Shown here: positions 5,519 to 15,977 of the stretch, piece by piece
How positions within the stretch are numbered: the first letter of the stretch is position 1
Layout: every line of letters starts with the position of its first letter
Virus record (IMG/VR): IMGVR_UViG_3300011114_000287
Coordinates: 1-21,127 of that record
Origin: a virus
Length of the DNA stretch: 21,127 bases
Strand: one strand, 5' to 3'
The notes under the pieces: model-generated
What the model saw: the letters and a program-made list of their open reading frames with translations, nothing else
Told to the model about the DNA's origin: nothing
Database searches by the model: none
Position numbers and translations under genes: made by a program

Positions 5519-5718
5519 GGAAAAGAAAAACAGGAAGAAGTATTAAGCTGGTCAAGGTTGAGGATTACGATGCCGTCAAGATTCTTGTCGATGTAGACGA
5601 TGATCTGTTCAATGCTATGGCCGATGCTGGCCGTCAGCACATCGTCAAGGACAAGGTTGCTTGCTTTGAGTACGCACTAAACAAGGCATTGCTTGAACTT
5701 TGCGAGGAAATAAAATGA
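5515..5718 (+). CDS. Hypothetical protein (67 aa)
   Basis: The gene has ATGA overlaps at both ends. The protein has a basic N-terminus (MRKRKTGRSIKLVKVEDYD), a central strand (VKILVDVDDDLFNAM) and a C-terminal helix (FEYALNKALLELCEEIK). The strand-helix-helix layout is similar to ribbon-helix-helix DNA-binding proteins, but the similarity is weak and I would not assign it. Confidence 0.6.
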   Translation: MRKRKTGRSIKLVKVEDYDAVKILVDVDDDLFNAMADAGRQHIVKDKVACFEYALNKALLELCEEIK

Positions 5719-6278
5719 GCGAGTTCAAGCAGAAGGTTTTAACCGCAGCCGTAGATCGCTATGTGTTAACCAAGACGCAGTGCGAGATGCTGCGCCAAGA
5801 TGCTGAAGTGATTGGCATGAAGCGTGCGACTGTGATGAAGAAGGATGGAACTACGCGCAAGTCGTTTGCCAGAAGTTGCAGCTCCTGCTGGATACCTTAC
5901 GCCAAGCATAATAACTGGATCTATAACATTATGCGGGAACTGACTGATGCCATCAACGCAGAGCATTGGAGGTTTGATGTTACTGGAATGCAACAGTTGC
6001 AGATACTAAAGTACAATCCACTCCAGCAGTTCTGGTGGCACTTCGATACCTATACTGGATCGGATCGCAAGTTGACAGCGGTTGTTAACCTATCCGCGCC
6101 TAACGAGTATCTTGGAGGCGGGTTGCAGGTTAAGGCTGACATCGACAACGTGAAGTTTATCCGCGAGCAAGGGGCGGGTTGCTGGTTTCCGTCCTACATC
6201 GAACATCGTGCGCGTGCGCCAATATGGGGAACGCGCTGGGTGTTGGTGGCTTGGCTAACTGGACCTAGCTGGAAATGA
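5715..6278 (+). CDS. 2-oxoglutarate/Fe(II)-dependent oxygenase
   Basis: The 187-residue protein has the jelly-roll iron motif H109-x-D111 (WWHFDTYTG), a distal His164 (PSYIEHRARAP) and Arg174 in GTRWVLVAW, which binds 2-oxoglutarate. NLSAPNEYLGGGLQV between them is typical of P4H/PKHD-like enzymes. The three Fe ligands and the Arg are intact, so the enzyme should be active and hydroxylate a substrate using 2OG and O2. The substrate is unknown: protein side chains, or methylated bases as in TET/AlkB-type enzymes. I place the start at ATG 5715, in ATGA overlap with the previous gene; an upstream ATG at 5700 would overlap further and is less likely. Confidence 0.8.
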   Translation: MSEFKQKVLTAAVDRYVLTKTQCEMLRQDAEVIGMKRATVMKKDGTTRKSFARSCSSCWIPYAKHNNWIYNIMRELTDAINAEHWRFDVTGMQQLQILKYNPLQQFWWHFDTYTGSDRKLTAVVNLSAPNEYLGGGLQVKADIDNVKFIREQGAGCWFPSYIEHRARAPIWGTRWVLVAWLTGPSWK

Positions 6279-6865
6279 CCCACGCAGCAAATCTACCCCG
6301 CCACTTGTATGTCAAGTGCGATATGGAGTTTGTGTCTGATGGCGAGAAGCAAGGCATAGAGGATGCTGTGTGGTTTGGCCTAACCGCAGTTCCAGGGCGT
6401 GCTTGGGGATGCACAATTATGCTGAAGTGTGGTGCGCTGTACCGAGGACTACCTCTACACGCTCTGGCTCACGGCGAGATAGCAATTATGGATTGGGACA
6501 TTAACGATGCCCAGCGATGGGATTGTTTCGGCTGGAACTTCACGACAATCGAATACGAGTATCTAATGGGTTTGTCTTGCCGAGTATGGATTGCAAGCAA
6601 GAAGACCTGGGAGGTTGGTCGCTATCTATTCACAGCCGAGCCTTATGGAGATGGGTTCTCTATGTCTCCAGGCCAAACCAAGTCACACCATTTTATTGCA
6701 CTTAACAATGGACGCATCACGGCTGTTCCAGGTAACAATGTGCTTTGGAAAGAATCAAGCTTCACCACTCCAAGCGAGAAACCTAATTGGCTGCGGACGC
6801 AGTCGCAGGTCTGGAATGGAGAAGAGGCAACGTGGGATGACGTTGTCGGTGAAGAAACAGCATAG
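6275..6865 (+). CDS. Conserved hypothetical phage protein (196 aa)
   Basis: ATGA couples it to the oxygenase gene. The protein is rich in Trp, Cys and aromatic residues. It includes GEIAIMDWDINDAQRWDCFG, IEYEYLMGL and a later GRYLFTAEPYGDG, followed by SPGQTKSHHFIALNNGRI and a C-terminal acidic end. I recognise this order as a phage family of unknown function, sometimes near glycan or modification genes. No catalytic triad is evident. Because of the tight coupling it may work with the oxygenase. Confidence 0.65.
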   Translation: MTHAANLPRHLYVKCDMEFVSDGEKQGIEDAVWFGLTAVPGRAWGCTIMLKCGALYRGLPLHALAHGEIAIMDWDINDAQRWDCFGWNFTTIEYEYLMGLSCRVWIASKKTWEVGRYLFTAEPYGDGFSMSPGQTKSHHFIALNNGRITAVPGNNVLWKESSFTTPSEKPNWLRTQSQVWNGEEATWDDVVGEETA

Positions 6866-6874
6866 GAGGTCACA

Positions 6875-7060
6875 ATGCCACTAGGTAAAGACGTAAGTAA
6901 GAATATGAGTGAGTTGGCTAGGGATAACAGAAAGAAAGGTAGCGAGCGTGGAGCAGGCGGTAAGCCTCGCTCGCGTCAGCAGATGATTGCGATAGCACTC
7001 TCTGCTGCTGGGAAGAGTAACAAATCGCCACGCAAATTTAGAATGCGGTCTGGTTCGTAA
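6875..7060 (+). CDS. Small basic protein, DUF6496-like (61 aa)
   Basis: An AGGAGGT site at 6864-6870 directly precedes ATG 6875. The product MPLGKDVSKNMSELARDN...SRQQMIAIALSAAGKSNK matches the small basic DUF6496 family common in phages, with the characteristic QxIAIALSaAGK helix. It is very basic and may bind nucleic acid. Its TAA stop shares one base with the next ATG. Role unknown. Confidence 0.75.
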   Translation: MPLGKDVSKNMSELARDNRKKGSERGAGGKPRSRQQMIAIALSAAGKSNKSPRKFRMRSGS

Positions 7061-7251
7061 TGCAAGTCGAGGCTAAAGATCGCCTCAAGTGGGCGCGCGA
7101 GATCCTTTCAATTGCACGCGACAAGCTTGTAGTTGAAAGGGATCGCGCTTCTCATGGCCATGCAATCGACATGATCCAGATTATTACGATGGTGGATGCG
7201 GCGGCTTTGATAGCAAAGGAAATACTGGAGGAAGATGAAAAGCAAGGATGA
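7060..7251 (+). CDS. Hypothetical helical protein (63 aa)
   Basis: ATG 7060 overlaps the preceding stop (TAATG). The protein is mainly helical, with basic and acidic repeats (LKWAREILSIARDKL) and a C-terminal acidic end. Its stop at 7249-7251 overlaps ATG 7248 of a second reading frame in the methyltransferase gene (ATGA). The methyltransferase itself starts at 7235 inside this gene. I do not recognise it. Confidence 0.6.
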   Translation: MQVEAKDRLKWAREILSIARDKLVVERDRASHGHAIDMIQIITMVDAAALIAKEILEEDEKQG

Positions 7252-8101
7252 GAAAACACACCTCGACTTATTTAGCGGGATCGGAGGATTTGCCTTGGCA
7301 GCAAAGTGGAATGGATATAGAACCGTTGGCTTCTGTGACAACGAACCCTACGCCCAAGCAGTCCTTAAAAAACACTGGCCAGATGTGCCGTGCCACAAAG
7401 ACATCCGCGAAGTACGAGGCGAGCTATACGCAGGAGTCACTCTTCTCACGGGTGGATTCCCATGCCAACCATTCTCAGTCGCAGGCAAGCAACGAGGCAA
7501 GGATGACAACCGTTACCTCTGGCCAGAAATGTTGCGCGTTATACAAGAAGCAAGGCCAACTTGGATCATTGGTGAGAATGTTGCTGGGATCGTCAACTTG
7601 GCACTCGACCAGGTGTGTGCTGACTTGGAAGGTCAAGGTTACGAAGTCGAACCGATCATTATTCCAGCTTGCGCCGTTGACGCGCCACACCGAAGAGACA
7701 GGGTTTGGATTGTGGGCCACTCCAAACTCGATGGACTCACTGCCTCCAAGACAAGCAGAGGATTGCTCGACAAATCAGAAGAACAGAGAGGGAAGATCGA
7801 GAAGCGGGAACTTGCGGGAACAAGTTGTGCATCCTCGGATGTGGCCGACACCGTCAGCCAACGAGGATGCGGCGGGAACTCCGAAGGGCAATATGCAGAA
7901 GATGTTGGGGAATCATCCAGACATTCGCGGGACAACTCCAGAGGAGTGGCAACGTGGATCGCTGAACCCAGCGTGGGTCGAGTGGCTAATGGGATACCCA
8001 ACAGGTCACACAGACTTAAAGGATTGGGTAACGCCATCGTTCCGCAAGTCGCGTCGGAAATCATCAGATGCATCAACAAAATAATGGAGGATAACAAATG
8101 A
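7235..8101 (+). CDS. DNA C5-cytosine methyltransferase
   Basis: All diagnostic motifs are visible. DLFSGIGG (11-18) binds SAM, GGFPCQPFS (73-81) has catalytic Cys77, ENV (114-116) is motif VI, HRRDRVWIV (152-160) is motif VIII, and LGNAIVPQVA (264-273) is motif X. The last region before motif X is WIAEPSVGRVANGIPNR. The length (288 aa) is short for the family because the target recognition region (about 165-240) is small and of low complexity. It methylates cytosine in a short site not readable from sequence. This protects phage DNA from host enzymes or marks it. It starts at 7235 with GGAGG 3 bases upstream and overlaps the previous gene by 17 bases. Its stop overlaps the ATG of the glycosyltransferase at 8098 (ATGA). 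A second open frame covers 96% of it. Confidence 0.9.
   Translation: MKSKDEKTHLDLFSGIGGFALAAKWNGYRTVGFCDNEPYAQAVLKKHWPDVPCHKDIREVRGELYAGVTLLTGGFPCQPFSVAGKQRGKDDNRYLWPEMLRVIQEARPTWIIGENVAGIVNLALDQVCADLEGQGYEVEPIIIPACAVDAPHRRDRVWIVGHSKLDGLTASKTSRGLLDKSEEQRGKIEKRELAGTSCASSDVADTVSQRGCGGNSEGQYAEDVGESSRHSRDNSRGVATWIAEPSVGRVANGIPNRSHRLKGLGNAIVPQVASEIIRCINKIMEDNK
7248..8084 (+). CDS. Overlapping reading frame inside the methyltransferase gene (278 aa)
   Basis: This frame is open for 278 codons wholly inside the methyltransferase gene. Its ATG at 7248 sits in an ATGA overlap with the stop of the 7060-7251 gene, the same coupling used throughout this operon. The product contains CVLTWKVKVTKSNRSLFQLAP, GLWATPNSMD, MWPTPSANED and LNPAWVEWLMGYPTGHTDL (239-257). 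I recall this order from proteins in phages, often annotated as methyltransferase-associated. The last motif lies over the same bases that encode WIAEPSVGRVANGIPNR in the main frame. Function is unknown. I did not compare conservation, so it may be an artefact of a stop-poor region; moderate doubt. Confidence 0.45.
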   Translation: MRKHTSTYLAGSEDLPWQQSGMDIEPLASVTTNPTPKQSLKNTGQMCRATKTSAKYEASYTQESLFSRVDSHANHSQSQASNEARMTTVTSGQKCCALYKKQGQLGSLVRMLLGSSTWHSTRCVLTWKVKVTKSNRSLFQLAPLTRHTEETGFGLWATPNSMDSLPPRQAEDCSTNQKNREGRSRSGNLREQVVHPRMWPTPSANEDAAGTPKGNMQKMLGNHPDIRGTTPEEWQRGSLNPAWVEWLMGYPTGHTDLKDWVTPSFRKSRRKSSDASTK

Positions 8102-9204
8102 AACTCTGGACAAACCACACTAACTCAATTCACAAAGTCGATGACAATATGCTCTACCCACGCAACACCTATGTGTTGCCCGATGAGCTAACTGGACCAA
8201 CCTGGGACGATTCCATTCCTTGTCCACACAAGATCAAGCCTTACTACAAAGGTAGGGCTGCTGGTGGGGCAACAGCCGTGTATCGCGCTGGTGCAATCGG
8301 TGATGCAATCATTGCGACAGCCTATGTCAACTACCTAGTGCAAGAGTCGGGTGGAGTTGTTGAGGTGTACGCGCCTGCTCGCAACCTGCCTCTCTACGCT
8401 GGGCTGGGTGCAAAGCTGTGGCCGTTGCCTGCCTCGCTGGAAGCGTGGGATTCGTTTGATAGTCACTTGCCTTGCGATGATTTGTTTAGTGGGCAGGTTG
8501 GCAACACGAAGCTAGGCACTGGTCCTGGTAACTGCTACCAGAGGATCTACGAGTGGATGGGGGTTTGGGACGAGAAGACGATGGCTAAGTATTGTAAGCC
8601 AGTTCTACATCTCATCGAGCCAGACCACGAAGAACTAAAGGCGATGGGCAAGTGGCCGATGCCAGATCCGTTCTTTGCTTACCATGTCAGTAGTTCTGGT
8701 CCTACCCGTACCTACCCTCCAACGATGGGGCAGGAGGCGGTGCTGGCGTTGCTTGAAGCCTATCCCAAGCATCACGCCGTAATCATTGGGCTGGATAACT
8801 CAAACAACTTCAAGGTGGATCATCCGCGAGTGATTGACCTATTCAATTGCACCAAGACTGTACGCTCGCTGTTCCCTATTATCAGCGGTGCTGACTTCAT
8901 TGTTGCGCCCGATAGCTCAGTCAATCACATGGCTGCTGGGTTGGATACGCCGTGTGTTTCGCTGTGGGGTTCGTACCATCCAGATGATCGGATGACTTAT
9001 TACCCTAAGAACGTATCGGTATTCAAACCAGATACCTGCCCACACGCACCTTGCCGTCCGCACGCTGGGTTGCCGCAGGCAAAGTGTAAGGATGCGAGCA
9101 ATAAAACCCCTCGAACTCAATACTGGTGTAATGCCCTACGGAATATAACAGCGCAGGATATTGTTGAGGCCAGCAAGAAAGCAATGGAACTGGAAAACAA
9201 ATAA
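8098..9204 (+). CDS. Glycosyltransferase family 9-like (heptosyltransferase-like, GT-B)
   Basis: The 368-residue protein has the N-terminal loop AGAIGDAIIATAYV (64-77) and the C-terminal nucleotide-sugar site VAPDSSVNHMAAGLDTP followed by CVSLWGSYHP (about 268-295), both diagnostic of GT9 enzymes of the ADP-heptose:LPS heptosyltransferase type. It is coupled to the methyltransferase by ATGA. The donor sugar cannot be read from sequence. It may alter surface polysaccharide to block superinfection, or it may glycosylate a hydroxylated base made by the oxygenase and methyltransferase encoded nearby. A Cys-rich C-terminal region (HAPCRPHAGLPQAKC) is unusual. Confidence 0.75.
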   Translation: MKLWTNHTNSIHKVDDNMLYPRNTYVLPDELTGPTWDDSIPCPHKIKPYYKGRAAGGATAVYRAGAIGDAIIATAYVNYLVQESGGVVEVYAPARNLPLYAGLGAKLWPLPASLEAWDSFDSHLPCDDLFSGQVGNTKLGTGPGNCYQRIYEWMGVWDEKTMAKYCKPVLHLIEPDHEELKAMGKWPMPDPFFAYHVSSSGPTRTYPPTMGQEAVLALLEAYPKHHAVIIGLDNSNNFKVDHPRVIDLFNCTKTVRSLFPIISGADFIVAPDSSVNHMAAGLDTPCVSLWGSYHPDDRMTYYPKNVSVFKPDTCPHAPCRPHAGLPQAKCKDASNKTPRTQYWCNALRNITAQDIVEASKKAMELENK

Positions 9205-12121: not shown

Positions 12122-12392
12122 AGAGCAGTTGAAGGTAGCGCACAAGTTCATTGGCCTGCTTCAACGAGAGAACGCTCAGTTGCATGGCGTTCTACGCTTG
12201 CTAGGTCAATTGGTTGATGATATGAATGCAAACTGCTCCTATGAAGTATTTGAAGTGCAATGGAACAGCCTTACAGAGCAGGTTAAGAGGCTGTCTGGAT
12301 TCTTTGAGAGCCACCAGAAGGCACTACAATCGCTCCACGATGCCTGTCCTAGCGTTTGGGATGAGGATGAGGTAGATGATGACATACAATAG
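12108..12392 (+). CDS. Hypothetical coiled-coil protein (94 aa)
   Basis: The open frame has TTG 12108 as the earliest likely start, overlapping the previous gene by 14 bases, with a purine-rich AAGGGCGGG upstream. The product has heptad-like helices (RENAQLHGVLRLLGQLVDDM) and a long acidic C-terminus ending DEDEVDDDIQ. It may be an acidic interaction partner. Function unknown; the exact start is unsure. Confidence 0.5.
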   Translation: MNHDREQLKVAHKFIGLLQRENAQLHGVLRLLGQLVDDMNANCSYEVFEVQWNSLTEQVKRLSGFFESHQKALQSLHDACPSVWDEDEVDDDIQ

Positions 12393-13050
12393 CCTTGGTT
12401 ATTTTTGGTATGTCTATAAAACAACATGCGCCATTAACGGAAAGGTTTATGTTGGGGTTCACAAGGCCAAAAAAATACTAAATAACTACATAGGGTGCGG
12501 AGTTGTGTCTGATGTTTCGGCAAAAAGAAGAGCATTAAAGATTAAATCGCCATTCGTGCAGGCAGTTGCAAAGCATGGATACGAAAACTTCAATAAAGAA
12601 ATATTAAAAAGATTTGATAATGCAGATGATGCTTACAATATGGAGGCTCAAATTGTAAATGAAGAGTGGATAAGGTCTGGCAATTCCTACAATGTTGCTC
12701 TAGGTGGCCGAAAAGCTGGCAAGCCCAGCAAATACTCTCATTTATTTGCAAAATGGAAAAGTTTGTATGAATCTGGGATGACCATGAAAGAAATAGCCAG
12801 AATAACTGGACTCAGTAGCCATGCTGCAATTAGTATAAATTTAGACAATATCGTTACAAAAAGAAAAAAATATCTTATTGCAAACAAGGCAAGAGAAATG
12901 AAATTATTTTGTATTGAGCTTGGCAAGTACTACAATTCGCAAAAAGATTTTTTGCTCGAAAGATTTGGAGACTGTAGGTCAGCAGGGAATTTGTCTGTTG
13001 CAATAAAGAATAGACTCAAGTTTAGAGGTCTAACCGTGGTAAGAGCATAA
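12376..13050 (+). CDS. GIY-YIG homing endonuclease
   Basis: The 224-residue protein has the GIY-YIG core: YVYKTT (12-17), KVYVGVHKAKK (23-33), and a catalytic Glu at 90 in AYNMEAQIV. The C-terminal half has a helix-turn-helix segment (MTMKEIARITGLSSHAAIS), as in Seg-like homing enzymes. These free-standing endonucleases cut a recipient genome and copy themselves in. The gene is clearly AT-rich compared with its neighbours and starts inside the preceding small gene (17-base overlap), so it is probably an insertion between otherwise adjacent phage genes. A second ATG lies at 12379. Confidence 0.75.
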   Translation: MMTYNSLGYFWYVYKTTCAINGKVYVGVHKAKKILNNYIGCGVVSDVSAKRRALKIKSPFVQAVAKHGYENFNKEILKRFDNADDAYNMEAQIVNEEWIRSGNSYNVALGGRKAGKPSKYSHLFAKWKSLYESGMTMKEIARITGLSSHAAISINLDNIVTKRKKYLIANKAREMKLFCIELGKYYNSQKDFLLERFGDCRSAGNLSVAIKNRLKFRGLTVVRA

Positions 13051-14977: not shown

Positions 14978-15129
14978 ATACTTTCCTCCCTCATATTTAT
15001 ATTGATACCCAAGCTTTCAAATATAGTTTCATATGCTTCTTGTCTACATGTAGCCTCAAATTGCAGGCAAGGCATGCCGCCGCCATATTGATCTTTATTG
15101 TCAAAAACTTCCACTAAGTAAGTTTTCAA
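14974..15129 (-). CDS. Small hypothetical protein (51 aa), TTG start
   Basis: The start is TTG at 15129, overlapping the ardC-like stop (TTGA), with AAAGGAG on the minus strand five bases upstream, a good ribosome site that decides the start. An in-frame GTG lies a few codons inside. The product KTYLVEVFDNKDQ, then a CLQFEATCRQEAYETI segment, suggests a small alpha/beta domain. Its stop overlaps the next start (ATGA). Unknown function. Confidence 0.55.
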   Translation of the reverse strand: MKTYLVEVFDNKDQYGGGMPCLQFEATCRQEAYETIFESLGININMREESI

Positions 15130-15977
15130 CTTTTCTCCTTTCCCATAATGAAATCATGAGCCGCCTGAGCTTTCGCAGCAGCATAAAATATCATTTTGGG
15201 ATCATTCTTCAGTACCTTTGACCAATTTTGACAGTAAGCGATTGCGTTTTCCTCAACTTCAGCGCGATTGATGCCCGATGATTGACATAAGAATTGCGCG
15301 CCAATCTCGGCCACAAGTTCCTCTTTCGCATACTTTTCGCTCCCAAAGTTTCCGCCAAGATCGCGCTCTAGTCGCGACTCATGGCCCGTTGAATGCGTCA
15401 ATTCATGAAACAAGGTGTCATAATATGCGCTTCCGCTTGTCCAGTGCGCCGTTTTCGGCGGCATGTTGACAATATCTTGACTAGGGATATAGCAAGCGCG
15501 CGAACCATCTACAATTTTTGGAGCGCGCGGCATTCGTTTGATTATGTGATCCGCTTCCACGATTTGCGCTACTGGTTCACTCGCCGCCTCTCGCTCAGGC
15601 ATACCATCACACTGTGACGCATTGAACACTGTGTAGTGCTTCATGAAGCGAAAAGTTTTCGCCTTTCCGCTTGTCTCACCTTCCCCGCTCTCATTCTCTC
15701 CACTCTTTTTGATTGTGGAATAGAATATGACAGGCCAGCCCTTTTCCCCCTTTCTAACTTGCGCGCCAAGCGCGGCGGCTTGCTTATAGGTTAAGAAACG
15801 AGGATCAGGATAGTGACTCGCCAAGTTTAACACTAGCGCGTTTACTCCTCTATACTCTGAGCCGCTGATGGCATTATGAGCCGCGCAGCTTCTCCATGGT
15901 TTGCGCCAGGGAATTTCACCCTTCCCAAGCGCCTCAACTATCTTTTCAACTATGCGGTTTGTATCTTCATTATTCAT
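15126..15977 (-). CDS. ardC: ArdC-like antirestriction protein
   Basis: The 283-residue protein starts with an N-terminal ssDNA-binding-type domain (IPWRKPWRS, YRGVNALVL, FLTYKQAAALGAQVRKGEKG), the mark of ArdC. A C-terminal zinc-metallopeptidase domain follows with HELTHSTGH (191-199), and Glu224 in EELVAEIGA is a likely third zinc ligand. All catalytic residues are intact. ArdC proteins protect incoming DNA from type I and type II restriction. The name refers to this family; the exact target in this host is unknown. It is the largest gene of the leftward block. A second gene lies upstream at 16350, and the gene after it is coupled. Confidence 0.85.
   Translation of the reverse strand: MNNEDTNRIVEKIVEALGKGEIPWRKPWRSCAAHNAISGSEYRGVNALVLNLASHYPDPRFLTYKQAAALGAQVRKGEKGWPVIFYSTIKKSGENESGEGETSGKAKTFRFMKHYTVFNASQCDGMPEREAASEPVAQIVEADHIIKRMPRAPKIVDGSRACYIPSQDIVNMPPKTAHWTSGSAYYDTLFHELTHSTGHESRLERDLGGNFGSEKYAKEELVAEIGAQFLCQSSGINRAEVEENAIAYCQNWSKVLKNDPKMIFYAAAKAQAAHDFIMGKEKS

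Follow-up and report, generated by a model that had tools for sequence, protein, structure and literature searches.

Two overlapping frames of one phage locus as the probable source of a split C5-cytosine DNA methyltransferase

A C5-cytosine DNA methyltransferase split into two subunits, both encoded by the same DNA in different frames, is probably present in IMG/VR virus record IMGVR_UViG_3300011114_000287, whose positions 1 to 21,127 were analyzed here as one stretch of 21,127 nucleotides (hereafter, the window). Judging from the sequence and its relatives, we give this reading a probability of roughly 0.87. Both frames are coding, selective constraint is divided between them, the product of the second frame (beta) carries motif IX and is able to be a gene of its own, and its cassettes are exchangeable. 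Beta is most likely the second subunit of the enzyme whose large subunit (alpha) is read from the main frame, and what the overlap encodes appears to be two components of a single enzyme. To our knowledge, it is rare for a long overlap on one strand to have selection governed by one frame in one segment and by the other frame in another. In this case, the origin of the overlap and the escape from it can be traced, because some relatives have the parts fused, others split, and others separated.

Organization of the two frames

Alpha has motifs I, IV (PCQ), VI (ENV), and VIII in the order of C5-cytosine DNA methyltransferases (PF00145), and also matches phrog_363 (8.6e-80). The PF00145 match (1.2e-43) covers alpha residues 10-176, corresponding to profile positions 4-175 of 324, and the match to M.HhaI (8e-16) covers residues 9-160 only; both stop at motif VIII. 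In these comparisons, the alpha chain shows neither a VIII-IX recognition region nor motif IX. A sequence-only reading of this DNA had credited the main frame with every C5-methyltransferase motif, which is not correct, as motif IX is missing. It is the alpha/beta pair that jointly has the C5-methyltransferase motifs, with IX coming from the +1 frame.

Beta lies on the same strand as alpha in the +1 phase, overlaps it nearly completely, and belongs to its own protein family (phrog_1008, 4e-27). The second open frame of 278 codons noticed in the sequence-only reading is indeed present at 7248-8084: its ATG at 7248 overlaps the stop of the preceding ORF in an ATGA, and its translation contains WATPNSMD and MWPTPSANED and ends with ...LNPAWVEWLMGYPTGHTDL... 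as described. Two conserved-looking motifs had also been said to share the same bases, and LNPAWVEWLMGYP of the second frame does sit over EPSVGRVANGIP of the main frame. The ATGA overlap suggests possible translational coupling. No family match was found for the preceding ORF. Directly 3′ of alpha, an ORF at 8098-9204 (+, 368 aa) overlaps the alpha stop by 4 nt and is without a PHROG match at 0.001.

Table 1. Features of the overlapping genes in the window (omega_main, alpha frame; omega_alt, +1 frame).
Feature	Positions	Strand	Basis or remark
Alpha subunit ORF, C5-cytosine methyltransferase large subunit, motifs I-VIII and X	7235-8101	+	288 aa
Probable beta subunit ORF, +1 frame: overprinted N-terminal domain, WxTP cassettes, motif IX	7248-8084	+	278 aa
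Preceding 63-aa ORF, TGA overlapping the beta ATG (ATGA)	7060-7251	+	sequence
GGAGG, Shine-Dalgarno-like, just 5′ of the alpha ATG at 7235	7227-7231	+	sequence
Motif I in alpha, DLFSGIGGF	7265-7291	+	translation; conserved in alpha only (omega_main 0.17, omega_alt 0.90)
Motif IV in alpha, catalytic PCQ, GGFPCQPFS	7451-7477	+	translation, M.HhaI alignment
Motif VI (ENV) in alpha	7574-7582	+	translation, M.HhaI alignment
Motif VIII in alpha, APHRRDRVWIV	7682-7714	+	translation; M.HhaI match ends here
Alpha linker between VIII and X	7715-7954	+	near neutral, omega_main 1.13 (0.90-1.39)
Motif X in alpha, GLGNAIVPQVA	8021-8053	+	translation; omega_main 0.15, omega_alt 1.47
Beta N-terminal domain, MTTVTSGQKCCALYKK...WHSTRCVLTWKVKVTKSNRSLFQLAP, overprinted on alpha motifs IV-VIII	7500-7682	+	
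Beta cassette 1, LWATPNSMDSLPPRQAEDCSTNQKNREGRSRSGNLREQVVHPR, putative target-recognition module	7710-7838	+	
Beta cassette 2, MWPTPSANEDAAGTPKGNMQKMLGNHPDIRGTTPEEWQRGS, putative target-recognition module	7839-7961	+	
Motif IX in beta, LNPAWVEWLMGYP, over alpha EPSVGRVANGIP	7962-8000	+	M.HhaI via L188; omega_alt 0.17

Some other genes of the window belong to known families. The gene at 15126-15977 (-) matches the anti-restriction protein family phrog_7245 (1.3e-74) and is likely a second counter-restriction gene in this phage, and that at 12376-13050 (+) matches a homing endonuclease family (phrog_314, 1.3e-24). Possible auxiliary metabolic genes, to judge from their family matches, are found at 5700-6278 (+), of the 2OG-Fe(II) oxygenase family (phrog_61), and then at 6275-6865 (+), which matches phrog_3704, labelled ferredoxin.

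Coding and selection in the +1 frame

Stops were counted against an expectation in which synonymous codons are shuffled and the alpha protein is kept fixed, with the +2 frame treated likewise. In 81 non-identical relatives, 14 stops are seen in the +1 frame vs 474 expected, and 1043 vs 1053 in the +2 control frame; the IMG/VR loci are partly redundant, and such counts are non-independent between relatives. For the tested core of the window gene, no +1 stop is seen vs 5.2 expected, and none of 500 shuffles reaches zero, to printed precision. Furthermore, the +1 frame is open in 124 of 133 relatives. An antisense ORF at 7639-8118 had been taken as a sign that stops are generally rare in this region. 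It is open in only 15 of the 133 relatives, so general stop scarcity is not the cause, and this ORF was rejected as a conserved gene. Relatives of beta are found by tblastn in 82 phage records and at least 588 IMG/VR stretches, and in the compared loci, two short fragments excepted, relatives of alpha and of beta share their DNA and keep the same register. On these sequence comparisons, the +1 frame is a real protein-coding gene, and the “hidden product” suspected earlier is borne out as a conserved, protein-coding frame. Its motifs had been ascribed to phage proteins common near methyltransferases: they do recur in phages (phrog_1008 and the 82 phage records), but in almost all cases the gene for this protein lies within that of the methyltransferase.

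Selection was mapped in 58 non-overlapping pairs of relatives, each substitution being classed as synonymous or not in each frame; the resulting omega values come from a simplified OLGenie-type count with Jukes-Cantor correction and do not imply a full codon model. Over motifs I-III, omega is 0.17 for alpha and 0.90 for beta, and over the PCQ segment 0.14 and 0.72. The values approach each other over motifs V-VI (0.33 and 0.47) and VII-VIII (0.20 and 0.49), then turn around in the variable region (1.13 and 0.17) and the motif IX region (0.76 and 0.17), and turn back at motif X (0.15 and 1.47). Thus, selection is handed over to beta once motif VIII is passed and returns to alpha with motif X, and the 3′ part is constrained mainly in the second frame. 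In the +2 control frame, omega_alt exceeds 1 in all segments, and the picture is unchanged when only pairs >85% identical are used. Within alpha WIAEPSVGRVAN, codon position three of alpha varies less than position one (0.18 vs 0.33), the reverse of an ordinary gene.

The region of the beta N-terminal domain is constrained in both frames (0.20-0.33 for alpha and 0.47-0.49 for beta), and W118, S120, C123, L125, W127, and L138-L141 of beta are nearly invariant in alignment A1. No constraint was found on the first ~75 residues of beta (omega_alt 0.90 over motifs I-III), so the start codon of the window beta is uncertain: it may be 7248, coupled to the preceding stop, or the alternative ATG at 7500. 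Among 62 relatives with an upstream +1 stop, the first start lies mostly ~130-170 nt 3′ of motif I, and such internal starts have at least five matching Shine-Dalgarno bases in 50% of cases vs 18% after codon shuffling (n=62). A window-like group lacks stops in the first ~75 residues, but this group is defined by openness, so the figure is circular and gives no proof.

Motif IX, cassettes, and rearranged relatives

The identity of the beta parts comes from rearranged relatives. In locus L188, motifs I-VIII, LNPDWVEWLMGYPISWT, and motif X are all within one ORF, whose protein fills PF00145 positions 2-322 of 324. Its end aligns with LHPRECARVMGYPDSY...FGNSVV of M.HhaI, where the second-domain match is weak but collinear, and in hhalign the beta motif IX falls on the L188 motif. 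L275-L277 are of the same single-frame kind. In L195 and L363, alpha ends after motif VIII, and beta joins the cassettes to motifs IX and X in a single frame. In L177, the +1 frame of alpha is interrupted, and beta is a gene of its own (245 aa) that lies downstream with no overlap. This is a second-frame homologue outside the methyltransferase frame; the sequence-only reading had named the lack of such homologues, and constraint in the main frame only, as grounds for refutation, and on both counts the outcome favors the second frame. Because L188, L195, L363, and L177 identify the beta parts in this way, LNPxWVEWLMGYP can be assigned to motif IX, and beta to the VIII-IX stretch. Judged from these alignments, beta probably holds the region that serves in ordinary C5-methyltransferases as the target-recognition domain between VIII and IX. 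Alpha alone would be without a recognition domain, because its own VIII-X region is near neutral.

In a tree of the alpha N-terminal parts, L188 and L275-L277 are nested in a set consisting mostly of overlapping loci (SH-aLRT 98), and L195 and L363 are likewise nested among such loci (SH-aLRT 99 and 96 for the nearest supported sets); the outgroup of this tree, L397, is on a long branch, and the position of L177 is unsure. Since they are nested among overlapping loci, the single-frame group, L195, and L363 look like escapes from an older overlap.

There are further variants. In L114, L139, L140, and L165, indels within the variable region displace the two frames relative to one another so that alpha I-VIII runs into motif IX, and in L027/L143 such indels make the beta N-terminal domain run into motif X; these loci may be mutants, assembly errors, or switching variants. 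In Mycobacterium phage Llama (L271), 1260-1889 and 1498-1869 are annotated as two consecutive DNA methyltransferase genes. This is a variant pair in which a frameshift near ENV apparently interrupts alpha, and the beta-like ORF ends in NPVWIEWLMGFPPNWTDV. L364, L365, L373, L378, and similar loci, relatives of the L177 alpha, have motif X, and a pattern search gave no motif IX in any frame. They have 2-4 stops in the +1 frame vs 16-18 in the +2 frame, and because +1 stops are so few, they likely carry a divergent beta.

The general plan of beta is a constant N-terminal domain, then cassettes each starting with WxTP, and then motif IX. One to five interchangeable cassettes are found per beta between the fixed halves, and a rough, heuristic clustering gives 116 cassette types and 86 architectures among 125 betas. 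For example, the type of window cassette 1 occurs in 21 betas with 9 architectures, and that of cassette 2 in 22 betas with 14 architectures and at six different positions. From this distribution, the cassettes look like swappable target-recognition modules. Sequence searches of Pfam, NCBIfam, PADLOC, and PDB with beta gave nothing convincing. Two AlphaFold2 models of beta are of low confidence (mean pLDDT 58 and 60.5) and gave no Foldseek match at E <=0.001 and no VIA-align match at Z >2.5 among known folds, which does not establish a new fold; beta may need alpha to fold.

The arrangement is widespread. Apart from seven contig-end loci, 353 loci were classed (286 + 50 + 9 + 5 + 2 + 1), 50 of which are unassigned. 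Motif IX in the +1 frame is combined with motif X in alpha in 286 loci (roughly 286 of 346 without contig-end cases), a further nine have motif IX in the +1 frame and no recognized motif X, and rare relatives have beta as a separate gene, motif X attached to beta, or all motifs in one frame. A search using the alpha N-terminal part only, and therefore blind to the 3′ part, found an open overlap in 79 of 123 loci, three of them without a recognized X. Phages of Paenibacillus, Lacticaseibacillus, Escherichia, and actinobacterial hosts have this arrangement, as do contigs binned to many bacterial phyla. The overlapping ORF is sometimes annotated, as “g49 internal gene” in Paenibacillus phage Diva and as “Mte8-like protein” (a Kagunavirus label) in K1ind3 and fTaEco01. 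Many phage “DNA methyltransferases” are nevertheless half-annotated, because only one of the two proteins is usually reported where a pipeline does not allow overlaps. A search for dual coding in phage methyltransferases among the available papers gave nothing direct; an HNH gene hidden in a phage methylase insertion is an unrelated case (PMC11855218).

Alternative readings and known systems

In the split-enzyme reading, the alpha and beta frames would each be translated separately, and the products would assemble into one enzyme, with cofactor binding and catalysis assigned to alpha (motifs I-VIII and X) and DNA recognition and motif IX to beta. The WxTP cassettes would set the methylated sequence or sequences, and the pair would methylate phage DNA, probably protecting it from host restriction. 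We give even odds to a fuller version that would hold for a large family of phage enzymes, in which cassettes are exchanged between phages, each adding or changing a specificity, and the recognition subunit is kept out of frame in the catalytic gene, where alpha reads it as a near-neutral linker. If the cassettes do set specificity, they would offer phages a widespread and mostly unannotated or misannotated route to altered methylation against host restriction.

Overlapping frames share bases, and alpha conservation alone makes the +1 frame look somewhat conserved; the window has an open antisense frame as well. It is nevertheless highly improbable that the +1 frame is just a shadow of alpha conservation and base composition with no second protein, since the 474 predicted stops, of which 14 are left, were obtained with alpha fixed, the variable region and motif IX are constrained in the +1 frame and not in alpha, the antisense frame is closed in most relatives (open in 15 of 133), and a non-overlapping beta gene exists in L177. 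Frame-shifted relatives also exist, and a distant ancestor presumably had I-VIII, the recognition region, and motif IX in a single frame, as would be expected if the second frame were the decayed leftover of an old frameshift. The sequence-only reading had considered such an ancestral relic, but the frame is under strong purifying selection now (omega 0.17) and an unused frame would gather stops, which leaves this idea with almost no credibility.

Beta comes with an N-terminal domain of its own and with internal ribosome-binding sites, its models gave no recognition-domain fold, and an anti-restriction gene is also found in the window. Beta might then be a separate protein with its own function, such as anti-restriction or regulation, merely overlapping alpha. 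This is unlikely, because beta carries motif IX, which is missing from alpha, some relatives have IX, alone or with X, joined to the rest of the enzyme in canonical order, and alpha without beta would have no recognition domain, its VIII-X region being near neutral. Programmed frameshifting into the +1 frame after motif VIII and back before motif X would also give the canonical motif order, which L188 has in one ORF. Two shifts would be needed, however, and the +1 constraint begins 5′ of VIII (omega_alt 0.47-0.49 over V-VIII), in a domain outside such a chain; in distant relatives, beta starts internally, often behind a Shine-Dalgarno sequence, and it can also be a free-standing gene. A single frameshifted chain is thus very unlikely, and two separately translated subunits remain the preferred reading.

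Known C5-methyltransferases provide partial parallels, M.EcoHK31I being the nearest of them. The small subunit of M.EcoHK31I is coded inside the large-subunit gene in another frame. M.EcoHK31I methylates YGGCCR and consists of two polypeptides that are both needed (Lee, Kam and Shaw 1995, via PMC3404938), the large subunit having motifs I-VIII and X and the smaller polypeptide only motif IX, with the recognition domain predicted in the large subunit (PMC3404938). By that description, the window alpha, with I-VIII and X, and beta, with IX, are similar to it. In contrast to M.EcoHK31I as described there, the VIII-IX region of the window is near neutral in alpha (1.13), conserved in beta (0.17), and built of exchangeable cassettes. 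Because the recognition domain of M.EcoHK31I is, in the same description, predicted in the large subunit, and this region is near neutral in alpha here, the locus is regarded as a variant probably working like M.EcoHK31I and is not filed as a member.

M.AquI is naturally split between motifs VIII and IX, with motif X on the small subunit (PMC3404938). The window differs from it in having motif X on alpha, so IX and X are not both on beta, whereas the relatives L195 and L363, with IX and X on beta, are like M.AquI. The multispecific phage C5-methyltransferases of SPR, phi3T, and H2 have tandem exchangeable recognition domains between VIII and IX. These enzymes are single chains in one frame, whereas the window cassettes lie in a second, overlapping frame; the cassette shuffling among the betas is as would be expected of exchangeable recognition modules such as those of SPR and phi3T, recognition by the cassettes being putative. 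phrog_1008, the Kagunavirus “Mte8-like protein”, and the Diva “g49 internal gene” are the same beta family, and these records give no methyltransferase-subunit function. Compared with M.EcoHK31I, what seems new here is the breadth of the arrangement, the recognition region in the overlapping frame, and the shuffling of its cassettes.
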